64,000 nucleotides of DNA from Apostichopus japonicus (Eukaryota > Echinodermata > Holothuroidea > Aspidochirotida > Stichopodidae): positions 19,177,841-19,241,840 of the forward strand of contig NC_092575.1 in assembly GCF_037975245.1 (NCBI RefSeq). Direction: 5' to 3'. The first letter of the stretch is position 1; each line of letters begins with the position of its first letter. The position numbers and the translations under genes were made by a program. Below, piece after piece: positions 13,827 to 56,000 of the stretch. Under the pieces are notes generated by a model. The model saw only the letters and a list, made by a program, of their open reading frames with translations, ran no database searches and was not told where the DNA came from.

Positions 13827-16800
13827 ATGGCCTCCAAACGCCCTGCTAACAAAAATGAAGAAGGCGGGGGTGAGCCGAAGGCTAAGCGGTTCCAGATGGA
13901 GCCTTACAATATAGGTCCTGTTTCATCACAGGTAAGCATATTTATTCAAGCTGAGATGTGTAAATTTAATAATTTAATATTTGTTAACACAGAATGAGGG
14001 GTATTTATTACTAGACAGGGACTCAGGAAGAATAACGTACAAGTTCAAAAAGTCTTAAAATGTGTACCATAACTTGGAGCAAACAGGTGTGATGTCAAAG
14101 ATTCACACTGACAAAGTTTTTTTTTTTTTTTCTAAACTTTTTCTGTAAAATATTAAGCCAATTGTTTTTCTCCCAAACTTAGTTCTCCCACATTGGGATG
14201 CATTAACATATGAGTACAAATACAGTCATTGTGGTATTGATCACTTCACTTTCCCTAAAGCAAAACTGGAACCTTGTCCAATACGAGACCTAAAGAGAAG
14301 CAAACCAGTTAATTCTCAGTGAGCAACTATGATATCACCTCTGTTTGTTTCAAGTTTACTTAATATGGTACAAGCTGTGACAAACTTCAACTATCAATAA
14401 CTAAATATGAAATGTAGGAATTGTATCCAAATTTTTGCCCGGATGGTTGGCATATGTTCTTCTTTCATTAGTCAAAAATAAATATTCATCTGAACTTTCC
14501 CTTTAAGTTTTTCTTCTTGTCTCTTTGATGAATATGTTTGTTTATGTTTCCCATTTTAAGGAAAATACTGGTTAGCCTTTTTGTCTTAAAGTTTTCTTCC
14601 CATTGTTTTCACTCTCTCCAATTTGCACGTCTTTCCACGACAGGAGGAGTTGGACATCAAAGTTTTGCAATTTCAAAACAGAAAACTTGTCGAAAAACTT
14701 TCTGTTAGAAATGAGATTGAGAACGAATTACGAAATCAAATCGAGGTACTCCAGCAGAGGCAAGCAACTGATGAGGCAGTCCTATCACTCATGAATAAAT
14801 ATTGGACTCAACTGGAGGAGGATATCAAAATCATCTACAAGAGGTTTGAAGCGCATCCTCAGACGATAGTTAAAGCCGAACCTACATTCAACCTGAATGC
14901 AAAGAGCTATCAGGTCGTGGATGACATCAAGGATGAGGAAGGTGGTGAGGTCAACGAGGTCAAACAGGAAGACGAGGCCACAGTCAAAACAGAAAGCAGT
15001 GAGGTGGTAGAGGGTAATGGTACAGAAGACGTTGTACCAGTTGCCATGGAGATGGAGATGAGCCCAAAGGAAGAGGCAGGAGAAGTCAAAGAGGAAGATA
15101 CCAAATGGGGTAAACAACAATCTCAAAAACCTCGTTTTTCTTGACACTGCTCAGGAAAGAGAATATGTATCATAAATGTTATATGTATTTTGGACAGGAA
15201 TGTGTGTTGTGCAGTGTTTTTTTTGTTTTGTTTTTAAAGTTGAATCAGTGTGTTTGTTTACAGGTAGACCAATATACCTATTGAAACAGCTCTCAATTTG
15301 TGGCCTCTATTTTCTTTTGCGCTTGCAAAATTAATGTAACTTAACAATTTTTATTGTGTTATATTATTTTAATTCTATTTATTGTTTTTGGAGTTTCTTG
15401 AGAGTTTTCCTTCTTCCATTCCTCGCAGAGCCAGAAGAACTCACTTCATTCTTGACCAAATTATCAAGTTGCGACCAAGATGAAATAGAAGCCAAGTTAG
15501 CCGATAGGCTAGCATTTTCCAAGAAGGCTGTGAATAGGCTAACAGAGATGTTTTGTAAATTAAAGGAAGATCAGGAGAAGGCTAATTTAGATTGGAAAGA
15601 TAAAGGTGAGAATAATACAAATAATAATTGAACATGTATCTGGAATCATTTGTAAACCTCAAATTGATGAACAAACCACTCGAGAGAATGGAGCAACTTA
15701 ACTTATAGAAAGTAAGGTTTGCAATCTCAATTTGAAAAAGTCAAACATTTGAGACTGACATGTAAAGTATCAAAATAAACTAGGTCATTGTCAATGAAAG
15801 AGAAAAAAAAAGGTTGGAATTGACACAGAATATGCACTTGATTTCTGTAATATTTACAATTGTTTGATGTAATCCTTCCCACCTTTTTTACCAGCTCATT
15901 TATTGGCTCAAAAACATGTAAATCGTCAATAGAAATGTTCCATAAACGACTTTGCAAAAATCAGAGACAAAGTTTGCTTTTACTCGAAAGTGAAATGCTG
16001 TATATCCTTACCATTTACTACCACCCTCTCTAGCTTTATAATTAATATGCTGATAAAGAGATAAATCATTTATATATAACAAGAAACAACTTGAAAATTG
16101 CATATTTTCTTACATATTGGCACATTAATATGAAGGAAGTGTTTACATTTGTTTATGCCACATCAAACAAAAATTGTTTAAGTGTACTGATTAAAAGTGA
16201 TTAAGACACCTTTTTTTGTTCTTTTAATCTTACTTATAGCTGCCATTTTATCATTTACTAACAATGCTTAAGTATTTATATACTTAACAAATTTGTCATT
16301 TCATTCTAACTTAAGCTGCTGATGAAATTTTAGCAGCAGTTAACGATGGCCTCGTAGCTGAAAACAAGAAATTAAACCAGCTTATCAAGGACCTACAAGA
16401 CCAACACAGAGTAATTACCATGCAGGTAGGACTTGGATAAAAAACTAAGCTTTCAATTTGATTTCCCCCACAATAAACCAAGTCGCTAGTAGAGGATTTA
16501 TCTGGCTTGGCAGGGGGTGGGAGTGGGGGGGGGGGGGGAGAGAGGGAGGTATGAAGTTTTTGTGCCAGTTGGACATGTGACCAGGTGCACTGGAACAGTG
16601 AAACAGGATGAATCTGGTAAGAAGCATGAACTGTGAGAGGCATGTGTGGATCTGAATTAATTGGTCAGACCACCACATTCCCTCTTAATTTCCTGCAAAG
16701 CAATCCTCAGTGCATTCCGTATCCCAAACTTTCTTTGTAAGTAAGTAAGTGTTTGTAAGTTTTTCAGAAGGTAACTAGTGGTAGCCCAATAAACTGAGCG

Positions 16801-19800: not shown

Positions 19801-22800
19801 ATCCCGCCCAGCACTATTTTCACATAAAATCTTGACATTCCTAACAATAATAAATTGGACCTAGTCTATGCCAAAGTCATACAGACTAATAATGCATCAG
19901 TTACGCATGCGAGAAACATTACTTACGGCTCTCAATAGGTCCCTTGTAAAATCTCTTTGAAACAAATTAATAACTTTTACCAGGTACGTAATATATTTCA
20001 CTAAAAAAAATTAAAAAATGTAAATTGTTAGCAAACCTAGTACTTGTGTATGTTCTTAAAAAAGCTACACAAGTGCCAGCATTTGGCATCTGAGCACCTT
20101 CAAAAATCCCCCAGGACGGCGATCAGTATACCCGGCACTCAGGAAATCCTGGGCCCATCCCTGATAAATTTTCTCAACTAATAATAATTCTTCTTCTTGC
20201 ACTGTATTCAAATTTATTGTAAACTAAATTGAGAAATATTATTGTCTGTTTTAATTTACAGCTTCAGCTACTTCCAGAAGGTGTCGTTGTTAGGACTTCT
20301 TCCTACAAATGCATCAAGACCCAGTTTTCAATTCTTTACAAGGAAGCCACCGACATCAAATTACAACTTGAGGAAGCTCGAAACCTACTGCAACAAGCAA
20401 AGAAGACTCACATGAGGCAGATTGAACAGATGGAGGTGGGTAATATCAGAATGTACTTTGCATGGATTTCTGGGGGTTGGGGTTGAGGGGGGGGGAGGTG
20501 GGGGGCTGCAGGTTGAGTATAGCGGTATTGTAACAGTAACCAGTTGGTATAACCATCATGGCAAAAGTAAGCCTAGAAAACAGTAGTTGCATGGCAGATG
20601 GCAGAATAATTTCATTATTTTATTTTTCTGCTGTTCAAGTTCTCAGTTTTCAACCATGTGAACCCTTGTCTGAACCATGTCTCTTTTGTTTTGTTTTATC
20701 TTTTTGGGTGGTTTACATCTCAGAGCGATGAGCTTGCGTGTCAGAAGAAACTACGGACTGAGATGATGCAGTTGGAAGACAATCTGGCTCAGGTGCAAAA
20801 GGAGTACGAGATGTTAAGAATTGAATTTGAACAAAACCTCGCTGCCAATGAACAGGCTGGTACGTCTTCTTAATTCACCGGTGTATAAAATATCTTTACT
20901 TGTGTAAAAGAATAGATTGCTTTTCTTCAAGCAACTCATCTTTAATGTAGATAAGAGGGATGGAGGGAAGATTGCCAGGAATTGTAAATAGTTATCCCTT
21001 TGCCTCTAATAAATGGCAAGCATATGTCTTTAACATGTTTTGTTATGATCTTTGATTAATGGATTATTTTAGTCTATGACAGTTATATTATTGGGATCAT
21101 TATTTAATATGAAAGAATCACCCAAAGGGAAAAGAAGTGGTTGGAGGGGGAGGGGACGGCAAGGGTAGACTGGGGCTTTTACAAAACCAACGTGCTTTCC
21201 ATCTTCTCTTGCTACCTGCTTCTTTTTATTACTTGTCTAATTTTAATTGTCTATCAGCACCATCTGCTGTCATACCACCTGCAAATTCTTACACTAAACA
21301 ACCATGTGGTGAAAGTGTTTCACAAGCGTAATTACACTTACTAAGTTACTACCAGGGTCCGTTCATGAATGCCACTTATGCAGTTGTCTGTGGGAACTTT
21401 GTGTAGGTTTCTCCTCTTGTCTTAAAATGGTATAGTCAGCCCTTTTCTAATTTCCAACAGTTAATGACAATATCAACATCAACCCAGATTCAAGTAGTCT
21501 AGGCTAGGCACATCTGCTATGAAATTGTCGATAGCTTAGGTCGAGGATGTCGGTGGGGTTACCGATGGTCACCAAGATTCCCAGGGTGGAGGGGAGGCAA
21601 ATGTACCTATGGTCGTTTCTGTTGTGTTTCTCTATCTCTGTTGCTCTGTTTCTCTGTTTCTCTATCATCTACTGCATGAGTTCATCTCTTAATCCTTTTT
21701 TTCAGTTCCCATTAATCAAGAATTAAGGCGACTCTTGGCGACCTTTCAGACTCAAAACCAACAGCTCAAAGGAGAAGTCCAGAGATATAGACGGAAGTTC
21801 AAGGAGTCACAAGTTGAAATTCAGAAGGTAAGATGTGATATCGACCTCTGACCTTTATAGTGTGGAACTGTTCAAGTTGAATCAGGTTTTATTATTTGTA
21901 AAGATCGATTTCTGTGTTGAGTCGCATACAACCATCTTGTAGTTGGCCAAGAGAATCTCACTTGTTATAGTGGCATCCTTTACGTATTGATGTGAATAGA
22001 GCAACTTGGAGCATGATGAGATTTGTGATAGTATTAATTAGTGTATTAATTAACATAGTTTTTGACCAGTCATTGTGTCGGGACCCGATATTTTTTAGTA
22101 TGTTACACCCAGCAATAAAGAAAACCAAATTAACACCTCACAGAAGTTGTTTACACAAACACAAAAATAGTGTGGTCAAACTATGATGTAGATTATCAAA
22201 CTACAATACTACAAAACTACAATACAATATCAAATAACTATGGACTAGGTTACACTTAATCAGCTAGTTGTATGTGACTTATCTACAATTATCAAAATAT
22301 CAATTATCAAATTATCAATTATCAAATTTACAATTATTAAACTACAAAACTATAAACTACAAAACTACAATACAAATATCAAATAACTATGGACTAGGTT
22401 ACACTTAATCAGCTAGTTGTATGTGACTTATCTACAATTATCAAAATATCAATTATCAAATTATCAATTATCAAATTTACAATTATTAAACTACAAAACT
22501 ATAAACTACAAAACTACAATACAAATATCAAATAACTATGGACTAGGTTACACTTAATCCGCTAGTTGTTTGTGTCTAATCTACAATTATCAAATTATCA
22601 ATTATCAAATTAACAATTATTAAACTACAATACTACAAAACTATAAACTACAAAACTACAATACAAATATCAAATAACTATGGACTAAGTTCTTAATCAG
22701 CTAGTTGTTTGTGTCTAATCTACAATTATCAAATTATCAATTATCAAATTAACAATTATAAAACTACAATACTACAAAACTATAAACTACAAAACTGCAA

Positions 22801-25800
22801 TACAAATACCAAATAACTATGGACTAGGTTACACTTAATTAGCTAGTTGTATGTGACTTATCTACAATTATCAAAATATCAATTATCAAATTATCAATTA
22901 TCAAATTTACAATTATTAAACTACAAAACTATAAACTACAAAACTACAATACAAATATCAAATAACTATGGACTAGGTTACACTTAATCAGCTAGTTGTA
23001 TGTGACTTATCTACAATTATCAAAATATCAATTATCAAATTATCAATTATCAAATTTACAATTATTAAACTACAAAACTATAAACTACAAAACTACAATA
23101 CAAATATCAAATAACTATGGACTAGGTTACACTTAATCCGCTAGTTGTTTGTGTCTAATCTACAATTATCAAATTATCAATTATCAAATTAACAATTATT
23201 AAACTACAATACTACAAAACTATAAACTACAAAACTACAATACAAATATCAAATAACTATGGACTAAGTTCTTAATCAGCTAGTTGTTTGTGTCTAATCT
23301 ACAATTATCAAATTATCAATTATCATATTAACAATTATAAAACTACAATACTACAAAACTATAAACTACAAAACTACAATACAAATACCAAATAACTATG
23401 GACTAGGTTACACTTAATTAGCTAGTTGTATGTGACTTATCTACAATTATCAAAATATCAATTATCAAATTATCAATTATCAAATTTACAATTATTAAAC
23501 TACAAAACTACAATACAAATATCAAATAACTATGGACTAGGTTACACTTAATCAGCTAGTTGTTTGTGTCTAATCTACAATTATCAAATTATCAATTATC
23601 AAATTAACAATTATTAAACTACAATACTACAAAACTATAAACTACAAAACTACAATACAAGTATCAAATAACTATGGACTAAGTTCTTAATCAGCTAGTT
23701 GTTTGTGTCTAATCTACAATTATCAAATTATCAATTATCAAATTAACAATTATAAAACTACAATACTACAAAACTATAAACTACAAAACTACAATACAAA
23801 TACCAAATAACTATGGACTAGGTTACACTTAATTAGCTAGTTGTTTGTGTCTAATCTAAAGACTGAGAACCCAGCCTCACCCCATATTCTGTATTTATTG
23901 TTATAACTGTGTCATAAGATGTAGAACAGTATCTGTAGTTCCTTGGGGTTCTTCCACACACATGTCTGATGCATTGCAGCCATTTAAATAGAATGCAAAA
24001 TGGTGGTTGTTGAAAGTTACATCATAACATAGATATCTGATTCTGGGTAATACTCAGAAGGTTTGGAAGAACTGTTGACAAAACTCATAAAGCTGATTTA
24101 AAAAATATGTGAACAGGCCATTTTTTCATATGGTTATTATTGTACTGATTTTATGGACTCTTAGTAGTTGGAAATTGTATTTTGTCTATGGTACATTACC
24201 ATGTTTCTTTCATGAGGGGCAAAGTGACTTGCACTGGTCCTGGCTGAACCTTGTAATGGTTGGCCCCTTTCATTCAAGGTTAATGGCAACTGGGCCGCAA
24301 AGGGGCATAGTAAAGTGGCACAAGGTCATACAGGCTTGTGGTCAGGAAACCAGTCCGCTTTCTTTATCGACAGTAATGAAGGCTGGTTCAATATAGGCAA
24401 AGCAAACGTGATCATTTATAAGAGCCAAATACTTTCTAGTGTCTACGATAATCAGCTTTCTCATTTTGACGTCATACTGTCTGGTATTTTCAGTGTTTTA
24501 ATCATGATATTGCAATATTACGATCTTTTGTTTTGCTTGCGTTTACAGCTCAAAGAAGAGCGCAATCGGATGAATTTAATACCGAACTCTGCCGTCTCGC
24601 CGAACACGACGGGAACGTTGTCATCGTCCGGCGGCAGTAACCTCGGTAAGGAATTACCGATGGATCACAAAGACCCACTCCACGATCTGCCGACTCCCGG
24701 AAAGAGGGAGGAACATCATCCCCACCAGGAGGAGAGAAGAGACAGGGAGAAGGAAAAGTTTAGGGAGGACAGACGTGAAAGTAGCAGCAGTACAAAATCA
24801 GAGTCCGACGCGATCAGAGATCTCAAGGCCAGTCTCAAGTAAGTTTCTTTGTTTTTCGCTTATAGAGTTTGAAAATCATGGCAACCGTGATGGTTATGTT
24901 CACATATGTGCTGTAGGCTGTGTTGGTGTAAGGTGCTCTTTAACACTTTACAGTGTCAAACTGCTTTTTATACTGTAGCAATGTTTCATAAAAATTATGA
25001 ATGTTTTCCTCTGCTGAAAACTTTTGATGAACTATGAACTTGAAGGGTAGATGTGCATATGTGAAGTTAGTAATTATCAACCTTTTTAAAATCTTGTTTT
25101 GAAAGTGTTACTGTTTAATGTTCTTATTACAAAATGCGGCAAGGATTAAAAAAAGCCCACTGATTTTATATTTCTTTTTTGAAATGTAGAAAAAGCCAAG
25201 AGAGTCAGAAGGAGATGAAATTGTTGCTGGATACTTACAAAGGTTTGGCCAAAGAACAGAGAGATAAAGTTCAGGTGGGTAGATTGGTTGGTTTCTTTGA
25301 CAGTGTGAGACAAAATATATCCTTTCGTCACTGTTTTTGTTAAAAAAAAATATGTAAGTCTCAGATTTCATAGGAAAAAATAAATAAACACAATACTTTT
25401 GAAAAGAAACCAAATATTCCAACTCCAGTATCATAACTTGTTTCATTGTTGAGAAACAGCATTTTAAAATCACCTATGGGATTTTGAATTGTGAGATATT
25501 TTTGTGATGTCACAAATCAAAAGATTAGAAACCTCATCAAATATGAAGTAATGATTTCAGTTGTGAAACGATGTAAACTGGATCAATAAGAAACAGAGAC
25601 TGACAAAGACAAGTTTCATTCATCGTTTCCATATGATATCAAAATTATTGCACAATTTGTACTTGTCTCAGAAACGGAACGGAGATAGGAAGCTTGAAAG
25701 CCTCATACTTTATCGTACCATAAACGATAAAGTAACCTGTTGAAAATATATATTTACTCTTTTAGTATCCGACCCAAGGGAGGGTGGGGGGGGGATCACC

Positions 25801-28800: not shown

Positions 28801-29557
28801 CTGCTTCATCATAGGATGCTATACAGTTAATTTTGCAATGTTAAGAACACAGATGTCTTTTTGAGAGGACAACAGGAATGGCAAATCTCTCTGATTTTGC
28901 TCTTGGACCATAATTATGCTTCTTTATTGAAATTGGGTAAAAAAAAGTGGACGATACAAGTATATGTAGGTTACATTTGTGTAATGAACATGCTGAAATG
29001 GGCGGTCCCAGTGATTTTACGGTAAATTGTTCGCGCCATAAGGACAACAGAAAATAAATTTCTTTCTTTCGATTGCGACAGCTTTTGTTCATTAAACCCA
29101 CCTGGTCAGAGTGCATTTAGAATAAGACACATTGAATCTGCTTCGGATGTTTGTTTACCAAAATTCATCAGCAAACACACATTGAGACTTTAGCATCATC
29201 AAAATTCTAAATTGTAAGTAGTGTTTAACCCATTAGCAAAGTGAACATAAGTCTCAATGGGTATAGGCTGACATACCTTGTTGTAAGTTGATCTCGACTT
29301 TAAAAGTAATCACCAAATCATCGCAGTCTGAAATATGAGAGGTAATAAATTTATTCTTCTCTTCGTTTTCCTCTTCTCAGGAGCAGTTAACCTGTCCGTG
29401 TTGCAAGAAGGGTCGTAAAGATGTGGTCCTCACAAAGTGTTTCCATGTGTTTTGTTACGAGTGCATCAAGACCAGATATGAAACCAGACAGAGGAAATGT
29501 CCAAAGTGCAATGCAGGGTTCGGTGCTAACGACTACCATCGGATCTGGTTAGACTGA
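13827..29557 (+). CDS. RNF20: Bre1 orthologue (RNF20/RNF40), E3 ubiquitin ligase for histone H2B, 979 aa
   Basis: The nuclear RING E3 that monoubiquitinates histone H2B with the RAD6/UBE2A-B class of E2, linked to transcription elongation. Coding exons: 13827-13931, 14644-15109, 15429-15605, 16316-16425, 17767-17973, 18573-18698, 20262-20435, 20724-20859, 21706-21827, 24549-24838, 25190-25274, 25943-26125, 26718-26846, 27393-27602, 28016-28156, 28679-28780, 29381-29557. All junctions are GT-AG and phases agree; the total is 980 codons including TGA. The N-terminus (MASKRPANK) is basic. Most of the protein is coiled coil, with family-typical stretches such as [20 protein letters not shown] (exon 8) and [13 protein letters not shown] (exon 11). 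Exon 2 adds an acidic segment and exon 10 a Glu/Arg-rich linker. The last exon carries a C3HC4 RING: Cys926, 929, 941, His943, Cys946, 949, 961, 964. Human RNF20 is 975 aa. I see one gene here, so it probably predates the RNF20/RNF40 split. Confidence 0.95.
18073..18264 (+). pseudogene. Decayed tandem copy of RNF20 exon 5 (3' part) and its donor region
   Basis: This intronic segment matches 17875-18052, the last ~100 bases of exon 5 plus the following intron, at high identity. The copy is dead as an exon. It has an in-frame TAG soon after its start (TACAAACTGTAG), and its donor has changed from CAG/GTAAAT to CAG/TTAATA. A neighbouring piece (about 18270-18350) matches the acceptor side of exon 6 (about 18503-18597), so the duplication covered the exon 5 to exon 6 interval. 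Confidence 0.8.
18356..18500. repeat. Direct repeat unit, also present at 19016-19156
   Basis: The block around CAACAGACAACACCCCATAC, ending near CACATGGGGGAGAA, occurs once before RNF20 exon 6 and again after it (19016-19156) with few differences. It belongs to the local segmental duplication around exons 5 and 6. Confidence 0.8.
19016..19156. repeat. Second copy of the 18356-18500 repeat
   Basis: A direct copy downstream of exon 6 within RNF20 intron 6. The differences are mainly single-base changes. Confidence 0.8.
19727..20163. mobile_element. Small hAT-like MITE in RNF20 intron 6
   Basis: The ends CAGGAATGTGCCCA and TGGGCCCATCCCTG are imperfect inverted repeats. The flanks (ACATAATT on the left, ATAAATTT on the right) resemble each other but are not an exact duplication. 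The interior has three CCCAGCACT words at 19757-19815. No coding capacity. Confidence 0.5.
22195..23862. repeat. AT-rich satellite array with higher-order structure in RNF20 intron 9
   Basis: About eleven to twelve tandem monomers contain ACTATGGACTAGGTTACAC, AGCTAGTTGT and runs of ATTATCAA. Taking the TGGACTA word as anchor, copies start at 22241, 22390, 22539, 22681, 22820, 22969, 23118, 23260, 23399, 23533, 23675 and 23814. The spacings are 149, 149, 142, 139, 149, 149, 142, 139, 134, 142 and 139. Monomer types recur in the order A-A-B-C, so the true repeat unit is 579 bp. The third unit has lost one A monomer and 15 bp of the other. The array sits entirely inside the intron between exons 9 and 10. 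Confidence 0.9.
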
Positions 29558-35600: not shown

Positions 35601-38600
35601 CTGCTTTTAAATGTCATGCAGTCTTAAAATGAGCATACTCAAAAACTTAATCCAACTTTCTAGAAGCTGAAAAAAGCACCTAATTTTCTTTTTAAGCAGG
35701 ATTTGGATTTTTATGAATCTCATCTGGGTAATTTGTGGATAACATTATTTTGTTGACATAATTAATTTTTATTTTTTATATATTTTTTTCCAGGTCAAGT
35801 GATGAAAAAATTGAGCTAGTGGACGTGGCTACCTTTTACAGAGAGGCTCCTTTGGATATTTCTATGCCTAGCGTGACTGAAAAAGACCCTCACAAGCAGA
35901 GGTTAGCCAGACTGGATTGGGAACTAGAGCAAAGGAAACGGTAAGTACCAAACTTCTGACTGTGCCTGGTATAAAATGAAAAAGGATCATATTTAGATCC
36001 ATTTAGCTAAAACTGGATTAGTGCTAAGAGAGAGATTAAGTTACCAACAGTCAGTCATGCCTACTGTAACTGAAAAAAGTGAGTAATGAGTCGACTGGTA
36101 TAAGTAGCAAATGAGGTCACAAAATCTTACAAACGGTGAATATAAGGAAGCCCAGGTGACAATTCATTCTCGATCTGTCTTGTATGTAGCAAACCATAAG
36201 ATCAGTCCATTAGTGTCTTCTAACTCGTTTAATTGCTGATGTACAGCGGGAGTCCGTCGGTCTAAAATCGAAAGCTTACCTCACAGAGTCAGATGAGGCC
36301 AGACTGCGTTTTTGTACCAAGGTAGTAATGTCTTGGACAGTGATGCCCGGGAAGGACACCTTCATTTACTGATAGCAATGAATCTGCCATTCGATCAATT
36401 TTCTTTTTTGTCAGTTTTGCATTTATCAGGAGTATTGAGTGTTATCGGTGTTTTCCTTTGTTTTTCTTTTTTTTTGAAGGTTGTCGGAGAAGTATGATGC
36501 AAGTGAAAGTAACAGGGACTTAGTTGCCAGAGAAATCAAATCCAAACAGGAATACCTGGAGAGCTTACAACCGAGACTCAAGAGCATTCTGGAGGTAATC
36601 TTAATGGCATCTATACAAGAAAATATGTTTGTGGTGGCAATGACCAAATATGGCATATTTCCAAATGCATTTTTTATGTTTTGTAGGAACTTTAAGTTCA
36701 TGGTGTACCGTCAAGAGAAAGTTGGTCAATACAATTGAGTATTACTTATGTCCAAGATTGTGGTCTAAAGGCTTACACAAGTAGACTTTCTTGCTTGGTA
36801 TGTTTGTATCAGGATAGTTTTGCATTCTGCAATAGGGCCTGAAGAGGACATATAATGGGGACAAATAAATTAATAACAATAATAATCAGTAGTTATTTTA
36901 CGATGCTTAATTAGACACAAATGTGGGAGAAACCTGTAGGGAACCTCCTGATTGCTAAGCCTCATTGCTTCAAATGCCAACACCTTGATCCACTCTGCCA
37001 CAGCAGTAAAGTGTGGAAGGGGTTAAAAGTCTTTGTGAAACAGGTTACCGCTTCATAAGAAGATAGCCCATTTAAGGTAAACAATTAAAAAAAAACAAGA
37101 GCAAGATGCCATCATCTCCATCTGTTGATATCCCTCAGAGTTGTTGTGAAACTAGTTTCATGCCTTACAGAAGTAAACGTCTAAGAGGAGTGTGGCATTT
37201 CTGGAGTTGAAATTATCCGTAGTATTGTAGTTTGTATTTCATATTTCTATTCCCTAAGTCTTCCTCCCAGTTCAGAAGTACCTCTACTCTTGTACATTGC
37301 TTTCATTTTTTTTGGGTTCTATTTCCTTAGTCTACTGTCCCGGTTCAGGAATATCTCTCGATGCCCTACGATCAGATCAGAACCCAACACCAGATGGCCC
37401 GACTCCTCCCTCGGCCTCTCTATATACTCTTTGTTCAATCTAGTGCCTATAGTGAAGCTTGTGGTGAGTTGCATCGCATACATTTGATGTATTAGGTTTC
37501 AAAGAATTTGATCGGTACATCCTGTCACATGTTTTCTGGGAGGGGATGGTTGTGGAGCCGGTGGTTAGGTAAATTTCTAGGTAGTAATTTCTCATGTATA
37601 TAACAATTTTGCATAATTTCAACATAGCGTACTGTAATATCACCTTGCTACCCAATAGCAGTTAAAAAAATAAAATTTTTGCTTTTCCTTTCTTTTCAGA
37701 TGGAGATCTTACAGTGAAGATAGAAGGAGATTCAGACACAGCCTCTGCCTCTATGTCGACCTCCGTAGCGATAGAGGAGGACAGTGACTCGGACAATGAA
37801 GAAAATCTGACCGAATCGGTGAATAGAGACAGATGTATATGTATTTTTTGTATGTATTTTTAGATCCTCCTGCAAGCAGGAACTCGCGAAGAAGCCATCA
37901 TTGGCTTATCAAAGCCGCAAGCTTGACCGAAGTCAGTCTCTTACATTCATATTAAACGTCCATGATTATGAATTGTCAATTGTCAACAACTCTGTGACTG
38001 GACGACATACATTAATCTTGGAGTGACTCAAACCGGGGACCTTATGATTGGAAGGGACCGGTGTTAACCACTGAGCTAACACTCCTTATGGCTAGGCCTT
38101 ACGGCCTAACACTCCTTATGGCTAGGCCTTACGGCTAGGGAGCTGCAGTTTGAAAGAGTAGATCAAAACCTAAGGAAATGATTTGCTTTGTGAAACATCT
38201 GAACAGATATTCAATTGTGCTGTGAACTACATTATTCTTTCGATATAGAAAGAGAAAGTAAGGTGTTTGTTACAATATAGTTGGTTACATTTACCCCCAA
38301 TGTGCTCCGATTCGTAGATTTGTTTCTGCACTCAATTCAGATGATTCTTTACGCCGGTATAAATCGGTCATTAGTTTTTCATTTCTTTATTCTCATGGCA
38401 AACATATCCAATCAAATGCAAAAAAAACTACTTGAAGTATTCAAAATTACTGACAAAGTAAACAAGCAAAGCCTTTTCATCCATCATGTTTCTTTTTTTT
38501 GCTATCTCACTCTTTTTTTCTTTCTTTCTTTTTTTTTTGCAGAAGAGGAGAAGAAAAACTGTCGGTGATAAGTTGGAGGAAAAAAGAAAGAAAGTCCTGG

Positions 38601-41600: not shown

Positions 41601-44600
41601 TTAATTATTATAATTTATGGAGCGTAGTATGCGCAACATTATTGCATTATATATTTTTGCATTATATATATATATATACATAAACCTATCTATGTATACC
41701 TATCTATATTTACATACACATATCTATATATATATGGTATGGTGTACCGTATGTCAACAGTTTATTCATAACTTCTAGTGTTGTTGCACTTAGTAAGGTA
41801 TTAGTAGCCAATGCAGCTAGGTTGATAAACATGTTCCTCAAAGTTCCTAATGTGTACAGATGCAGCTGGTCATTCTTTCTGATCTGTTTTTATTCTTTGT
41901 TTGTCTCCTGTAGCATTGATTCTTGGAGTACCTTCTCAGAGTCGGTGGGGAGTCCCTATCTATGGTGCCAGTGGTTGTCTGGTCTCGACTTTCTCCAATG
42001 CGACGACACTAAAGGAATGAAACCTAACACATGCCTCAGTTCCAGTCACATGGAAGCTACTGTCAAGGCCCTTAAAGGACGAATCAAAGCTAGGCTAGCT
42101 CTCCAGAAGCAAGTCACTCTAGTTGGTAGGTGGCGACCATCGACAAAGGGAGATTATTGTGTGTGTGTAGCAAGGTGCATGTTGCTTGAAAACTCAGCTG
42201 GATATAAAAAGTCTCTCTCGTTTTTATCTCAATCATTTCTTCATATTTTCCAATGCAAAAATCAAACAAAGTCTTTGTCTAATTTAATCGTTCCTGACGA
42301 GGTTTTTTCGGTGAAGTGAAAGTAACAGATAACATGTGCAGATACCTTCTTCTTTCGTTTTATGGTATTTAATAATTAATAATTTATTTTATAAAGCGTA
42401 AAATCCACAAAAGTGCTCTAAAACGCTATGTAACAGTAAAAAAATATATGACACATAATATGTAGTAAACCTGCAGAATAAAATACAATTTAGATGAGTA
42501 TGAAGAATAAAAAGCATGCACGTTTAAGTGTGTAAGAGTACTGGACATGAATAGAGTTGAATACACAGTTGTATTGTTTAGTACCAAAATATCTTGATAG
42601 TTTTAACCCAACAGGTAATAACTACAAACCATCTGTAAATGTTTTTTTATTATCTATTTGTTTTTCTTGTCTGTTGCAGGTCAGGGCAACATACCAGTAC
42701 CATCTTCAACTGTCAAATTGTTCCCCTCCAAGCTATCATCCAGAGTTGTTTCTTGGAAGCCTATCACAGAGGAAGCCATGATGGTAGGTAGTATATAGCA
42801 TATCAGGCTGCTCATGGTTGGTGAGAGGAAGGGGGGGGGGCTCAGGGGGTCTATGTCTAGTTAACATTGCCAGTAATTATCTCACTAGATAGCTACAGCA
42901 ATGTTAATGTTAGTACTTGTAGCAACTATGTAGTTCATGTTATAAGGCTTATCCTGCCAAGTTGGTGGGGCTAACATTATGCAGCCATCAATTATATTTG
43001 TGCGTTGAAAATGAATTTTATCATGCTTCTGCAATGATTAGGTATCGTGATACATACTAACAACAGTGATATGTTCAATGTCACAAGGGGTTTTAGAAAA
43101 TCATGACAATTAAGTTTTCATGGCAAACACAATCCCAAATAATTGTGACATATGGTAACCCTAACTCAATCACACACCCCTTTTCATAAAATTACAACCA
43201 TAATCAACTAACTCAGTCTTATTGAACTGATGTAATCATGTGTCTTCTTAAACACAGTTGGGATTTAGTTGGCCATTTTACCAAACCTACAGAGTGTTAC
43301 TCAAAGTAAAGATTACGGTAAATATGTGTTATCAAACTAAAATATCCTCCGTGATTCCATCAACCATTGATGGTTAATGAGTAAGATGGCCATTGGCATG
43401 ACATCAAACTGTAGGATACACCGAGGACTCGAGGAGATACAAAATGATATTTCCCTGCTAGTAATGAACCATTTCTACTAGCTTGTGGGAAACCACTGTA
43501 GGTGACATATTTAGACAGTGTCAATAGGTCCAACATACAAATGTACTAACGTAAACAAGTAGAATGGCTGGCAGTTCACACAGTGGTAAATGCATGTATT
43601 TATGTCTACATTTATGCTAAATCAGAACACTACTTGAACAAGTAGTGTTTTAAAAGTAGCATTCTGTAAAGAGCGAGAGTTAATTGTTTAGTTTTGGTTT
43701 TCATTAACTGTTATTGGGAAATGCCGGACATGCAAGGTCAGCAAGGGGTCATGCTGGATAGAGGGCAGTATATAATAGAGTTAAAAGACATGTCAGAATC
43801 GACTCTACCGTAAATCTTCGTGACAAAATGGCTGCTTTTGTGGCTTCCTATTATTATGCAACTGCGTTTACGTTACTATTTCGCTCTCTCTATTTCAGGA
43901 ACTGGACTTTGTGTTGACACATCCGTTGAGTGAAAACATCGATTCCAGCTCATTCTTCTATTCATTCTCTTGTGAAAGAAAATCCGGTGAGTTTGGTGAT
44001 TAGACAAAATAATGATGTGATCCTTCTAGAGATTGCTACGTGGTCACATCCTTTAAAGGTTCATTGCACAATGGACTCTTCCTACATATTGCTATATTAC
44101 AAATACCCTTTAAAGGTACATTGCACAATGGACTCTTCCTAATTATTGCTATATTACTAAATACCCTTTAAAGGTACATTGCATAATAGACTCTTCCTAA
44201 ATTATTGCTATATTACTAAATACCCTTTAAAGGTACATTGCATAATGGATTCTTCCAACCTGTTGCTATATTCGCACACTGTATGGCATTAAAGCAGCAT
44301 TTTGCGTCCTTTTCTATGGTTTTTCTCAACCTCACTGACTCCACTATGCCATAACGACATACATAACTAGCTTATCTATTTAAATCTTACTTCAAATGGT
44401 GGCATAAAAGTCGAAAAATTTGCAACTTTCAACTTTGTTTTTCTCCAAGATATTTTCAGTTGGGATCCCAATTAACCTCGCCCATAATATGAATATTTAA
44501 ACACTACGAACGTCATTGACCAATAGGCCTACGTAATACAACACCATGCTTGATTTGTGTACAGTCTATATGGCATTTGTACCAGGAAGTTCCATAATGA

Positions 44601-46309
44601 CTCCCTGGTTGTACCAATGCAAAATCTTGAATCTTTTTTTAGAAACGGCTCATAACTAAACCTGTATCTCTGATTGGTTGAATTCAAACTAGTGGGTTTG
44701 GGGCAACTGTATTTAACTGTGGATTTGTCGTGGACACTTTTCTCATTATCTGCAAATATCCTTAATTACTCGCTAATTAACGTTATTTGCAGGGAAAAAC
44801 TTGGCTAATATCTTAGTTTGCTGTTTTGTGATTGATATATGTAAAAAACTTGATGGACATGTCCAAAAAGTAGAAAACGGCGACCAAACGCAAAATGCTG
44901 CTTTAAGGTTTTAAGCCATTCCGTATAGCCTGATTTTAACATAGATGATGTGTTATCAAGTTTGTTCATGTTCTTTTGTTGTTATAACCTACTCTTCACA
45001 GCTAAAGTGCAAGGAGTGGTTGTCTTAAAGGAGGCCTACCCGATCACTCCTCCGATATTTCTCATTAAACTCATCTGGCAGAATAAGACCCACATGGCAG
45101 CATCTGACCACGACATCTTGGTAAGGTTTTCAAATCAGTTTTATGGTGTTCACTTAGAACTCTATATACAGAATACAATATAATATGTATACAGAATAAA
45201 ATAATGGTTGGGGAAGAATGGGGAGGTGGTGGTGGAGTAATTGTGGAGAAGGATAAGCAATATAGGGAAGAATGGGGAGGTGGTGCCTGGAGAAGTTGTG
45301 GAGGAGAATAAGCAATGGGAAGAATGGGGAGGTGGTGCTGGAGTAACTGTGGAGGAAGATAAGCAATGGGGAAGAATGGGGAGGTGGTGCCTGGAGAAGT
45401 TTTGGAGGAGAATAAGCAATGGGGAAGAATGGGGAGGTGGTGCCTGGAGAAGTTGTGGAGGAGGATAAGCAATGGTAGAGACTTCATCCCTCAGTGACGG
45501 TGGCTTGGATCAATCTCTTACACTTAAATTTACCTCGAGAAGGGAATGTCTCAAATTTAAACTTCGTTGTTGTTGTTGCATCATCAGGATATGGAGGCAG
45601 AAGTTAATTTACACAGCCAGGAGTTGATTACTGCCAAGACCTGTGAGTACCTGCTCAGCTGTCAGTTACAGAGGCTGCTACAGTGTCTGGACGTGTACCT
45701 GGAGGCCGCATCAGCGGAAGAAGCCAGCCGCTCACCGGGAACACAGGTGGAATTTCCAAAGGAGAAGATGTTTGTGAGAAATACACGGTATGGATTACAT
45801 AAAACAATCTTCCACCCCCTCCCTCCCCCACCCTCTCTTTCTCCCAACACCTAACCCATCCTTCCTTTCTGAAGACCTTTTCTTGTTCTAATCAGTTAAA
45901 TCTTCTTATCGGTCAATGACAGTTATGAGTCATTGGCATTCCTATCTAGCCGGATGGGATTTGATAATGTTAACCAAAGTTTCGTCTGTTGACATAGCTT
46001 TTGGGATGACCTGTAAGACTATACATAAGATATAAGAATCTAGTAGCAAAATGTTTGGGAAGTGCATGTGTGTTTTTCTCCTCTCCTTAAAGAACTGGAT
46101 TGGTAAAGTTTGAAAATTTGTAATAGTGTAACAGTAGATTGGAAGGTACCATTCTATATGATTAAAAGTTTGTTAAAATGAATTCCAATGAAATGTTTTG
46201 AATTTTTTTTTCTTTTTCCTTGTCCTCTCCAAATTTCATCAACAGGGGTCGTAGTCGAAGCAAGCCTTACAAGTACAGCCCTCAGCATGGATATTTTTCA
46301 CAAAGATAA
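32683..46309 (+). CDS. THOC5: THO complex subunit 5 (THOC5), 699 aa
   Basis: Subunit of the THO part of TREX, which couples transcription to mRNA export in the nucleus. Coding exons: 32683-32826, 33349-33486, 34852-35063, 35794-35940, 36480-36594, 37331-37463, 37700-37818, 38543-38642, 39675-39777, 40495-40596, 41914-42125, 42680-42783, 43899-43986, 45002-45120, 45588-45787, 46246-46309. Phases close throughout and total 700 codons including TAA; human THOC5 is 683 aa. The N-terminus is Ser/Lys-rich with basic clusters ([11 protein letters not shown]). Exon 3 encodes the conserved coiled-coil stretch [20 protein letters not shown]; exon 4 has [13 protein letters not shown], exon 5 [10 protein letters not shown], exon 10 LYPGDDG. 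Exon 7 adds an acidic linker ([11 protein letters not shown]) and exon 8 a basic run (KRRRKT). The C-terminus [10 protein letters not shown] matches the family ending. The order of conserved blocks matches vertebrate THOC5 end to end. Confidence 0.95.
33618..33705. repeat. Short minisatellite in THOC5 intron 2
   Basis: Tandem TATGTATGGTTTGATATGG words with a period of about 19-22 bases, 3-4 copies. Confidence 0.6.
34440..34570 (-). repeat. Possible tRNA-derived SINE fragment in THOC5 intron 2
   Basis: On the minus strand the sequence contains a Pol III B-box-like GGTTCGATCA (about 34511-34520), preceded by CCTAGCAACCAGGAGGTC. A related piece without a clean B box lies at 36950-37020 (TAGCAATCAGGAGGTTC). 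The A box is poor, so the assignment is tentative. Confidence 0.35.
36945..37025 (-). repeat. Possible tRNA-derived SINE fragment in THOC5 intron 5
   Basis: On the minus strand GTGGCAGAGTGGATCAAGG resembles a tRNA-Ser/Leu A-box region. GAGGCTTAGCAATCAGGAGG follows, shared with the 34440-34570 fragment. The expected B box is degraded. Confidence 0.35.
37848..38085 (-). mobile_element. tRNA-derived SINE, copy 1 (THOC5 intron 7)
   Basis: The 5' head, read on the minus strand (38085 down to about 38020), is tRNA-like: GGAGTGTTAGCTCAGTGGTT (A-box type), then GGTTTGAGTCACTCC (B-box type) with matching acceptor ends. The body includes GTCCAGT, GACTTCGGTCA and CTTGCAGGAGGATC. The tail at the low-coordinate end is made of ATAC/TACA words. 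A second copy sits at 40621-40882. The insertion lies 30 bases after the exon 7 donor. Just beyond the head, at 38080-38150, the words CACTCCTTATGGCTAGGCCT are doubled. Confidence 0.8.
40621..40882 (-). mobile_element. tRNA-derived SINE, copy 2 (THOC5 intron 10)
   Basis: Same element and orientation as 37848-38085, about 90 percent alike by eye. It ends in a longer (TACA)n tail at 40621-40660 and begins with a tRNA-like head near 40820-40882. Tetranucleotide tails of this kind are known for some tRNA-derived SINEs. It lies 25 bases after the exon 10 donor. Confidence 0.8.
44050..44272. repeat. ~58-bp minisatellite, four copies (THOC5 intron 13)
   Basis: The CTTTAAAGGT word starts at 44051, 44108, 44166 and 44225. 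Each unit continues with a CATTGCA(C/T)AAT word and then GGACTCTTCCTA or a close variant. Confidence 0.85.
45205..45480. repeat. ~53-bp G-rich minisatellite, five copies (THOC5 intron 14)
   Basis: The GAATGGGGAGGTGGTG word starts at 45216, 45270, 45322, 45374 and 45427. Units contain GGAGAAGTTGTGGAGGA and AATAAGCAATGGG. The array yields long open frames on both strands, which are artefacts of the repeat. Confidence 0.9.
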
Positions 46310-50086: not shown

Positions 50087-53000
50087 CTACTTTGACCTTT
50101 TCCTTATCTTGTATTTCCCCTTCTGCATTTGGCTGACCCAAATTCGCATCCTCGAATTGTCTGCAACTTTTCGTACCCAAATCTGTCGGAAGAGAAACCA
50201 GAGAGCAAAATCAAAGAATTAGGACATCTGACAGATATATACTACTAAGAAGATCTTAAAGGAATGTAGTAAAATTAACACTACAACCAGGGGGGTAGGA
50301 GCCAGGGGGGCACGTGCCACCCCACTTTTTTCCAAAATAGCAAATGTGCCCTACTGGCAAATAAAATGTGCCCCTTTGATGAAGAGCTGCCTTTTAAATA
50401 TCTTAAGCCTTTGTTAATTTTAATACTTTTAGTTTAATTATTTATGTGCACCATAATAGCATTGATAGCATACTAGCACATCATATATATTTAAGTGATT
50501 GGGCCGGTGTGTATCAATTTATAGCTTAACGAGTGGTGGTTGTGGAATGAGAAAGTGCCCCTCTGATGTTGTGCCCCCCCACTTTTTGGAAGCTTCCTAC
50601 CCCCCTGACTACAACATTTATGTGAGAAGGCATTTCTTCCGGAAGGAGATTGGTTTGGGAAACACTTTCTTTAATGTATTTTGTTTTGACTATGGCATTG
50701 AATGTTAAAAATAATAATTGCTAGTGGAGAACTTCAACTTATATAGGGATATATATTTTCTTTTTCTTCTTCTTCTACATTTTCAGTCTATAGTTTCTCA
50801 AGCCTTGATAACCACGGTCAGTTATTACAAATGAGTTCCACAGGTAGATCACATTAAAGGATGACTTTAGGTACAGAATGAACTTTGCAGATGCCGTATG
50901 GAAAAAATCTGTCCATGGAGTAATTTCTATCACTTAATTTGTGAGAATTGACCTGTTTAAACCATTGAATTTCGACAATTAAAATGACTGAACTATTGAG
51001 TCGAATACACAAGACTATGCGGTCAGTTCCTCAGATGCATCGCAAAATTCGATGGGGAAACGAAATAGTTCTATGGCCTCTAATGACACATTTACAATTC
51101 ACTACAAATTAATCAAGGACAGATGGTTTGCAATATCGTCCATCTGTGCTCTGATCGTTAAACATGAAGCTAAAAGAACATGTTTTGGTTGAGTTTATTA
51201 GAATTTATAAAACAATGAATTAATATTAAAAATTTTAAGCCCTGCACTGAGATGATGATATTATCATCAATTGAGTCTTCAAGGAGCGTCCCATAGATTT
51301 AGCATATATCTTAAAGGTGAATTTCTTTATAAACCTCAATAGCAATACAAGACGTACTAGCACTCAATTCTTTTTCTGCCTAACACTTTCTACTAAAGTG
51401 TTTTTTGTTTCGTTTTTTGCCAAAGATATATTTTCACTTAATTTGAATTTAAAAGGAACACTTACGTCAAATTGTCCAATAGTCATGATTTTTGCCAAAG
51501 TTTTTTATCACTTCATTTGAATTTTAAGAGGAACACTTACGTCAAATTGTCCAAATAGTCGTAAGTTTTGCCAAAGATATATTTTCACTTAATTTGAATT
51601 TAAGAGGAACACTTGCGTCAAATTGTCCAATAGTCGTGATTTTTGCCAAAGATATATTTTCACTTAATTTGAATTTAAGAGGAACACTTACGTCAAATTG
51701 TCCAACAGTCATGATATTTGCCAAAGATATATTTTCACTTAATTTGAATTTTAAGAGGAACACTTATGCAAATTGTCCAATAATCATGATTTTTGCCATT
51801 GAAGATATATTTTCACTTAATTTGAATTTAAGAGGAACACTTACGCAAATTGTCCAATAATCGTGATTTTGCCAAAGATATATTTTCACTTAATTTGAAT
51901 TTAAGAGGAACACTCACGTCAAGTTGTCCAATAGTTGTGATGACCGCGCTGACTTTGCCCATCTCCCGAGACTCCACGTAGATGTTCTGGTCTTTGTGGT
52001 ACCACCGTTTTTCATAAAACAGTTTGCTGCCATCTATCCTCACATTGTACTTGGGCATGCTGATGGTCCCGGATGCAGTGGTATTCGTGGAGGAGGAAGC
52101 AGCCGCTGCATGTGGTAGGGTGTTCTGGGAGACTTTTGTGTGCGCAGCCGATGGGGAAGATTTGTGATTGGTGTTGTGGTAAGAATGGGAATGAACTGGG
52201 TAAAGAAAACAAAAATCCGAAAGTTCATCAAAAACTCATCATTCACAAAAACTGACTACAGAAACATGCCAAATTTATTTTGTTTGCAACAACAAGCATA
52301 CAACTTCTCCCAGCAAAAAATGAACACAGAACAATACTTTGATGGGTGTGTCAGTTACCCAGTCCATTGTGTATAGCCTTCACTAGAAAGCTCACCAGAG
52401 AAAGTTATAATTAAAATTCATTTAATTTAATTTAAAAAAATAATTAAAAAAAAAATTTAATTTAATCAAAATCAGAATAAGACTATGGATATGGTACCTT
52501 TATTACTGGGTTTCGAGGAGTTTCCACTTTTCTTGCTCAATGCAGACCGTCCCTAAGAAAGCCAAGAGAGAGAGAGAGAAATGAATATTAGAAGTATGCA
52601 CAAAGGAATTCAGAATCTGGTACTTCAGTTCTTAGATAAGTAATTATAATCAGAAAGATGATATCAAACAAGACACCCATAGGTACCTGTAGCCAGTGCG
52701 CATAGCATGGAATAATTTAAGATGAACACCTTCCACAGCAATTTGGAAGTTTTATGAAAAATATTTCATTTGCCCAGCAATTTTGTACGTCATTTTGCTA
52801 TCGGATATTTATTCCTTGCATTGTTTGTTGTGATTTCATTGACTGCTTTACAACATGTGAAACGGTGTACAACAAGTCGTATAGCAGGATCAGGGTCCTT
52901 GACACTCACTTGTGGGTAAGGGGACCAGGAATCCCCCCCCCCCCCAAAAAACTTACACACCAATGATTGCAGGCGGTCACTGTGCAATGAAAAGCAGTAA

Positions 53001-56000
53001 TTTCAACAGGCCTGAACATTGATTTCAATACTGTTCTGCTCCCCCCCCCCCCTCCACCCTATCCTCCATTTTTTCAAACCAGTGCCAGGGTTCCTGATGA
53101 TGCCACTTCCTCAAAATTCATAAGAGTCAACAATCCTATTCTATTGTATTCATCTACTGTGAAGGTATGAATCCTATGATATTTCAACGGCCATTTTTAA
53201 GGACCTTTCCTTCCATTTATATATATATCTTTTTGTTGATTTCTCATTCAAATAAAATGCATTTGGATTGTTTGTTAAAGTCGGTTGATGAACTTATTAC
53301 ATGCATCAGTTTTTTAATTTAAAATGCCAAATAATTATCATAAATTATATTAATATAGCACTAAATACAGCAATTCAAAGCGATTTACAAAGTAGGAAAG
53401 AGACAAAGGAAACCAAGGGAAAAAAGAAACTAGGAATCAAACAGAAATGTTTTAAGTTGTCTCTTGTAAAAAGAGAGGAAGGGAGAGTCATGTGCGTGAA
53501 ATGGGAGTTTGTTCTAAAGAGAAGGCCAACTATATTTTGCAAAGATTTTTTTACAACTCTTGAAGAAAACTGAAGGCAAAAAATCTGCCACCAAAATATT
53601 ACATCAATACTAGAATAAAATGCACATAGGCCTGTATTTTTTTATTACATCAATTACTAAAGAGTTTTATTTAACTGCCCTTGAAAAAATTTTAATTGAA
53701 AAGATGGAGGTGGAAGAATTTGTTTTTGTTTACCTTGCTAAGTATTCTGAGGTCCTCCATGATATTTTCGTCAGACAACAGGTAGGTGAAAGGAGGTATG
53801 ACAAGAGTTAAGGGAAAAGAAGAAAATTATGAAACTTAATACCAAATTATCGATGATGCAATATCAACATACCCCAGATGCAATGTAGAAATGTTCGCAG
53901 AATGTTCAGAAAAATAAAGCTGAAATATCCGGTTTTTTTTTTGTCAACACTGTAATGCTACTAAAAGAAATCATTTCATTATGTTTTTAATTTTCATGAT
54001 TTTCAAGGATATAGGGAGAAGCCTTCCTTCTCTTTTCGGGCATTGGTAGAGGTTCATTTGGCCTCCTTCTCAGTTTTCTGGTGTTGACAGGTTTCACCTC
54101 AAAGAAGTCACCTGAAAATGGAGTGGGGGGAAAAAATCCTCTATTAAAAATGATAATTCAAAGTACCTTAAAGTTGCAATACAAAAAAAAAAAATATGAT
54201 ATCTCTATGATCAGCTCTAATAAAATAATCCTGCTAATTAATAAATACAGGCCTCAAAACTCAGGCGAAATAGTTGTTAAATATATGTGAATTTGATGAA
54301 CTGTAAACATAGAAACCCCCCCAAAAAAAGGGGGGTGGGATGTTACTTGCATTTTCTGTTAGTAGAAGTTAACAAAATGCCATCATCAAACATTATGCCT
54401 CATGTTAATACTAAAACTAGAAAGTATGTGTTCAGTCTTGAATTGTTCTCTGCTTGCAAACTGTTTTACATGATAAATTTTAAACACTCCATGCAAGAAA
54501 TTACTCCATATTACCATATCAACTCCATCTACTCTAGTCTTCCTTGAAGTTTTAATACTTCCTGTTAGTAAAACTTGGACTGTCAAATTTTGCATAAGTT
54601 CCATAAACTTGGTTCCAGAACTCGCAGAAACAATTCTGTGTTAGAGCATTTTATTTACAGGTGTCACATTTCAAACGACCCAGATTTGTATGAAAAAAGT
54701 CACAAATGTTTATTTTGAAATAAGTTACAAAAGAATATTATCATTAATCTTTTACTCACCACCATTCAGATCTAAAGACAGACCTTCATTTTCAATATTT
54801 CTCCTTCTGTCCTCTAATTCATTGATTAGATGTTCCTTCAGGTCTATCTTCTTTTGCTGGTGAAAGATGTTTCACAAAATTATATTGTTTCATCAATATG
54901 AAGGGACACGATCACAATATCATTCTAAAACAGTTCTCCAGGCAAAATATCAAAGATGAGACTGTGCTATCAGGGGCTGATCCCAAGTTTTAAAAAAGAG
55001 GGGGTGTGGCCATGTGGACTTTGATACTGACTCCCATTTGGGGGGAGGGGGAGGGGGGTGGGGCAGTGTCTTTCCTCATAAAAATTTTTTTTAGATGTCA
55101 TATGGTGCGACATATTTAGACTATAAATTAGGTCTTAATGCAAAGTTGTGCTTACAATTGGGGATGGGTGTACACTACTAGTAGCTTCTGCAAAATTGTT
55201 TTTAAAACTTTGTGGAGGAATTCATTACAAACTTGGTCAACATACAGTATTCAATCAACGTTTAGATCTGTTTCACCGTTGACATCTTCACACAGATTGA
55301 GCAATTTGGTTAAAACATATACTTAAACTGTATCACACAGATAACATAATTACCTCAAATTCTTCAGCGGCCTCCTTCCTCTCCCGGATATAATGGTGCT
55401 CCACACACTCAAGCTGTGAATATAAAGGGAAAGGAGTTTGTAATATACAGTTAACATAAACCTCTTGAATACAGACTGGGCAGTTCTATAAACCATATAT
55501 AATTGAAAACGTAATTAGAAGGAAAATCCAGAACAGAAAAACTTCCAGCCTCCACCGGATTCGAACCTGGGCCTCCCGCTTTGTACGCGGATACCCTAAC
55601 CAACTAGGCTATGGATGCTGATTGAATGTCCAGAGGTTCGAAACCGGTTACAAGGAAGTCGTAAATTTCACTGTAGGCATTTGACACCTATATCAAACAA
55701 TACTAGTTCTGTGTTTGGTGACATAATTTGCCTTACTCTAGAGATCAAACATGACGCTATCCAACTCGAAAATCATTTGTGATTCCTGAAGCCGGATCTC
55801 GAAAGAGATACTTTGAACAGGCTTTATGTTAATGAAATGGAGGTAAACGACAAAGGCAAATGAATATATATAATTGAAAACGTATTGATATAATATATAT
55901 AATTGAAAACGTAATGACATAATGTAATATGTATATATATATATATTTACAAGCAGCTTATAAATGTTATGTCATGAAAGATAATGTCAGGCATACATTT

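Follow-up and report, generated by a model that had tools for sequence, protein, structure and literature searches.

A tandem array that repeats the exon 9 splice donor in a SUDS3 gene

The stretch of DNA analyzed here, 64 kb in length and referred to as the window, carries on its minus strand a gene for SUDS3, a subunit of the Sin3 complex. Ten coding exons were found, running from 58081 to 50087, and when joined they give 1077 bases in a single open frame of 358 residues; the start codon in exon 1 of this model was picked by eye. The predicted protein matches the Sds3 family in Pfam (PF08598, E 3.9e-21, residues 49-179). Against solved structures it matched two pieces of SDS3, among them PDB 7sxi (E 2.2e-22, residues 282-357). 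Both the Sds3 domain and the C-terminal capped Tudor domain are present, as in a SUDS3/SDS3 protein. The gene had been named SUDS3 in the initial annotation and the exon of interest numbered 9, and both hold for the ten coding exons found here. Exon 9 ends with the residues ...ITTIGQLD and exon 10 begins with IWVRK. In the 7sxi alignment, which runs without a gap over the exon 9/10 join, exon 10 encodes 30 of the 76 query residues. This homology to the solved SDS3 C-terminal domain supports GAC/GTGAGT at 51917 as the genuine donor of exon 9, which is also the donor that had been chosen before.

Intron 6 of SUDS3 is an AT-AC intron of 217 bp (window 53796-54012, minus strand). It starts with ATATCCTT, and TCCCTTAAC ends 11 bases before the intron end, which we take to fit the motif expected of a U12-type intron. 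Intron 7 of human SUDS3 is a minor (U12-type) intron (PMC8280824, PMC11039992), and the AT-AC intron 6 is probably this same conserved minor intron. Intron 3 contains a tRNA-like sequence on the minus strand, called by ARAGORN as a tRNA-Cys with anticodon aca (55545-55620) and matched by the Rfam tRNA model at 55547-55618 (42.6 bits). Given its odd anticodon, this sequence may be a pseudogene or a repeat derived from a tRNA.

Several other features were noted in the window. An exon of a ubiquitin-conjugating enzyme is encoded at 1629-1904 on the minus strand (PF00179, E 9.1e-27) and presumably resembles UBE2L3. The plus strand carries a gene that we take to be RNF20/BRE1, with a RING domain at 29339-29554 and a large internal minisatellite at 22198-23858 (TRF; period 149, 11.6 copies, 91% matches). 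Also on the plus strand, a Thoc5-like domain is encoded at 35762-35944 (PF09766, E 8.9e-16), and downstream of it are minisatellites at 44050-44272 and 45209-45475, with periods of 59 and 53, respectively (TRF). A GTAAGTAAGTAAGT microsatellite at 16737-16760 (plus strand) is followed by another GTAAGT, forming a small cluster of perfect donor hexamers. No exon was recognized by eye beside this microsatellite.

The end of SUDS3 exon 9 lies within a tandem array (Table 1). TRF places the array at 51414-51935 with a period of 75, 6.9 copies, 90% matches and a score of 836, compared to a best score of 59 in 20 first-order Markov random windows. On the minus strand the array can be cut into seven units of ~75 bp, from 51941 down to 51415, of which the first is the exon's own end. 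In every unit the final 24 bases of exon 9 are copied, together with a donor slot and ~51 intronic bases. In the alignment, the exon copy of unit 6 is missing its first base, and the base at -2 is absent from those of units 2 and 3. The exon sequence upstream of unit 1 differs from the repeat, and similarity stops downstream of unit 7. Thus, the tandem array of exon end and intron start reported in the initial annotation is real, and the lengths given there (74, 77, 75, 75, 76, 75) are those of units 1 to 6 as cut here.

Table 1. Features at the exon 9 end of SUDS3 (window coordinates; a slash marks the exon/intron boundary or its copy)
Feature	Position	Strand	Details
Exon 9	51918..52195	-	278 bp; phase 0 end
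True donor of exon 9, GAC/GTGAGT	51912..51917	-	Join to exon 10 gives gapless SDS3 C-terminal domain
Intron 9	50183..51917	-	1735 bp; acceptor ...TTCCGACAG outside array
Exon 10, coding part	50087..50182	-	Residues 328-358 and stop; second half of capped Tudor domain
Unit 1	51868..51941	-	74 bp; last 24 bases of exon 9 and 50 bases of intron 9
Unit 2	51791..51867	-	77 bp; slot TGC/GTAAGT at 51844
TAA stop, exon 9 frame read through intron	51828..51830	-	After 29 codons of read-through; in unit 2
Unit 3	51716..51790	-	75 bp; slot TGC/ATAAGT at 51767, GT lost
Unit 4	51641..51715	-	75 bp; slot GAC/GTAAGT at 51691
Unit 5	51565..51640	-	76 bp; slot GAC/GCAAGT at 51616, possible GC donor
Unit 6	51490..51564	-	75 bp; slot GAC/GTAAGT at 51540
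Unit 7	51415..51489	-	75 bp; slot GAC/GTAAGT at 51465

Pairwise comparison of the units (gaps excluded) shows 2 to 14 substitutions, and indels are present as well. Such variation is unlike a simple assembly duplication, and an artefact of the assembly is highly improbable, even with a single sequence as the basis. A tree of the seven copies gave support of 0.47 to 0.84, and the order of duplication is not firm. Read by eye, the breakpoints have at most one base in common. A BLASTN search of the 64-kb window did not find a second copy of the unit, the next matches having E-values of 0.14 or worse, and a unit common to other loci was thus rejected within the window. When the 522-bp array was placed at every position of the gene, an exon end was crossed in 62% of placements; overlap between the array and an exon is therefore unsurprising by itself. 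The units could also be read as small cassette exons, each with AAATTAAG as an acceptor before the exon copy and donor, and an AG does lie 46 to 50 nt upstream of each downstream slot, after TTCCTCTT. A-rich sequence separates TTCCTCTT from the AG, and we regard this arrangement as extremely improbable.

Four of the six downstream slots keep GTAAGT (51844, 51691, 51540, and 51465), not three as first counted, and the GT is lost in the other two (51767, ATAAGT; 51616, GCAAGT). The donor weight matrix used for scoring is not fitted to the host species, and energies of the duplex with the 5′ end of U1 were calculated without the U1 pseudouridines. On this matrix, GTGAGT at 51917 scores 3.13 bits and the GTAAGT at 51691, 51540, and 51465 score 3.25 bits each. 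The copy at 51844 scores only 0.34 bits on the same matrix. The calculated U1 duplex has an energy of -7.7 kcal/mol at the true donor, and each of the four GTAAGT copies gives -7.6 kcal/mol. The initial annotation had called downstream copies stronger than the genuine donor. By the matrix this is so for three copies, only marginally, and it fails for U1 pairing and for 51844; we therefore rejected the claim. The three GTAAGT copies equal the true donor and are not clearly better. Matrix scores of the donors in the gene's other seven GT introns span -0.56 to 5.47.

Ranking of the 92 GT sites of intron 9 by the matrix puts the three copies and, just below them, the true donor in the top four places. 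By U1 pairing, the strongest among the 20 intron 9 sites listed is at 50600 (-8.9). In the other eight SUDS3 introns (5183 bp, with a few bases at each end omitted and the AT-AC intron included), only 2 of 274 GT sites reach 3.1 bits, and the array's 0.5 kb holds 4 of the 23 minus-strand GTAAGT in the window. Thus, within SUDS3, the array adds strong sites. Donor-like sites of such strength are nevertheless common across the 64 kb, with 71 of at least 3.0 bits on the minus strand and 86 on the plus strand. Overlapping sets of three such sites within 500 bp number 10 (minus) and 11 (plus), and 40 Markov random strands gave a mean of 11.2. For sets of four the count, made on the minus strand only, is three, one of which is the array; random strands gave 2.3. 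Clustering is no higher than random, and the density of donor-like sites was rejected as a signal by itself.

When units 2-7 are compared with the majority sequence, differences fall at 2 of 36 positions in the donor hexamer, 10 of 144 in the exon copy, and 16 of 270 in the other intronic bases (~6-7% each), a small comparison with little power in which gaps were counted and 14 of the 16 intronic differences are in units 2 and 6, partly in poorly aligned tails. The donor hexamers thus diverge like the rest of the unit, with no sign that donors were kept or removed. This bears on whether the copies serve as extra U1 sites that aid the definition of exon 9 or shield intron 9 from early polyadenylation, against which U1 is protective. 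In favor of such a role, the true donor carries a C at -1 and the copies match it in U1 pairing. With no sign of donor copies being kept, we consider it very improbable.

The reading frame after use of a downstream donor is set by the donor-to-donor distance, not by the unit length. These distances, which are also the insert lengths, are 73, 150, 226, 301, 377, and 452 nt. The inserts of the four GT donors (73, 226, 377, and 452 nt) all break the frame, and none would give an in-frame isoform. The sole slot at a multiple of three is 51767 (150 nt), which is without GT and lies behind a stop. The proposal that every downstream donor shifts the frame therefore stands for the four GT donors and the GC slot and fails for the 150-nt slot. 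A deeper block than the frameshift is the in-frame stop in unit 2 (Table 1), where the exon 9 frame ends; a reading of the array as a coding repeat was rejected on this ground.

Use of 51844 is predicted to add 73 bases and to read exon 10 in another frame, with the product ending after 398 residues at a stop that lies downstream of the last junction. For 51691, 51540, and 51465 the predicted early stop lies 136, 287, and 362 nt before the last junction. A stop farther than 50-55 nt upstream of the last junction leads to nonsense-mediated decay, and by this rule, from which the host may differ, messages from these three donors are likely decay substrates. The frameshift that had been expected from downstream use is thus predicted for the GT copies in two forms: a frameshifted tail from 51844, and an early stop ahead of the other three donors. 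All of the predicted products of downstream GT donors lack the second half of the capped Tudor domain (residues 328-358). An alternative site that leads to an early stop, as predicted for 51691, 51540, and 51465, is a feature of poison splicing. The GTAAGT copies might accordingly act in regulated unproductive splicing, as a switch that sends SUDS3 pre-mRNA to decay and sets the amount of this Sin3-complex subunit, and three downstream GT donors do match the score of the true donor and would place an early stop 136 to 362 nt ahead of the last junction. We consider such a switch unlikely, since two of the six slots are without GT and the donor hexamers diverge like the remainder of the unit (2/36 vs. 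26/414).

The reading that we prefer, with a probability of roughly two in three, is that the array is a tolerated minisatellite, in which the first donor is dominant and some splicing leaks into unproductive products. A stretch around the exon 9 donor, made up of 24 exonic and ~51 intronic bases, would have been tandemly duplicated, and the copy pattern suggests expansion to seven units by slippage or unequal exchange. Most messages would use the first donor at 51917, the only GT slot yielding the conserved protein. Some pre-mRNAs are probably spliced from a downstream GTAAGT copy, which would give a frameshifted C-terminal tail from 51844 and an early stop with likely decay from 51691, 51540, or 51465. 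The cost of this mis-splicing would be small enough for the array to persist. The position of three copies just above the true donor in the ranking of the 92 intron 9 sites argues against a tolerated array, as does the gain of strong sites that the array brings to this gene.

The majority unit is exactly 75 bases long and stop-free in the exon 9 frame, and the other two frames have stops. Indels are now present in units 1, 2, 3, 5, and 6. Judging from the majority sequence, downstream donors could have added 25 residues per unit before these indels, with exon 10 kept in frame, and such in-frame steps may be a reason why an early array was tolerated. The open unit may also have arisen by chance. 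In the other SUDS3 introns, a given frame is stop-free in 35% of 51-nt stretches, and a third of all lengths are multiples of three; chance is therefore enough to account for an open unit. The open frame of the consensus, with stops in the other two frames, would fit an isoform generator of the IFI6 type, in which downstream donors give SUDS3 other C-termini and formerly gave in-frame insertions of 25 residues, and IFI6 itself uses two downstream repeat units as donors (PMC4526556). No present GT slot keeps the frame, a stop lies within unit 2, and chance suffices for the open unit, all of which make this generator quite unlikely. A combined history is very unlikely in our estimation: the array would have begun as a frame-preserving donor ratchet adding 25-residue modules at the exon 9/10 join, in the capped Tudor domain, and would have become, after the indels, an unproductive-splicing valve on a core Sin3-complex subunit.

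With near-identical donors spaced ~75 bp apart after a single exon, the array offers a natural test of how position affects the choice among equal 5′ splice sites. If the downstream copies are used, copy-number variation between individuals could alter how much of this Sin3-complex subunit is made. If the copies go unused, the array shows the strength of the preference for the first donor. Repetition of an exon end with its splice signal is an accident that is rare but has been described before, and it may cost SUDS3 some mis-spliced messages. We did not find the SUDS3 array in the literature, a result of little weight as the searches never paired SUDS3 with minisatellite or tandem repeat.

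The minisatellite of the human 6-16/IFI6 gene has a unit of 12 bp and adds 4 residues per step. Its existence takes away the novelty of a structure that had been presented as unusual: a minisatellite with multiple splice donor sites in human 6-16/IFI6 (G1P3) is named in the title of Turri, Cuin and Porter (1995; cited in PMC2572611, PMC2915984, PMC4526556, PMC3618361). According to one of these papers, two downstream repeat units serve as donors and three mRNA species result (PMC4526556). As in IFI6, the tandem repeats of the SUDS3 array offer several splice donors. The unit holds the exon end and the donor, and a consensus donor is kept in more than one unit (GTGAGT and four GTAAGT). Unlike IFI6, for which downstream use is reported, the SUDS3 array has a unit of ~75 bp and downstream GT donors that break the frame or follow a stop. 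We would place it with splice-donor minisatellites of the IFI6 type as a putative member, by structure only. In the Drosophila P element, U1 binds pseudo-5′ splice sites that are not themselves spliced; these are exonic and repress splicing in a regulated way. The SUDS3 copies are similarly extra U1-binding donor-like sites near a real donor, but they are intronic.

New introns can likewise arise by tandem duplication (PMC4974935, PMC3629103), and in the fission yeast case there are 24-nt repeats and several repeat units (PMC3629103). As in intron gain of this kind, splice signals are multiplied in tandem in SUDS3. Unlike it, the array multiplies only the donor side of the existing intron 9. 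The acceptor at 50183 is outside the array, and intron gain by tandem duplication was thus rejected. In a cancer family, MSH6 c.3936_4001+8dup repeats 74 bp in tandem at an exon end, with the donor included (PMC9818763). In both genes an exon end is tandemly duplicated with its donor; the MSH6 case differs in that the duplication occurred once and takes in more exon but just 8 bases of intron. White blood cell RNA contained two transcripts, one using the duplicated donor and another from which the exon was skipped; the sole aberrant transcript detected in saliva was the exon-skipped one (PMC9818763). By analogy with the use of the downstream copy in MSH6, heavy downstream use is possible in SUDS3 as well, which would argue against dominance of the first donor. 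Since the MSH6 duplication gave a transcript using the duplicated donor, some leakage from a tolerated SUDS3 array is a realistic expectation.
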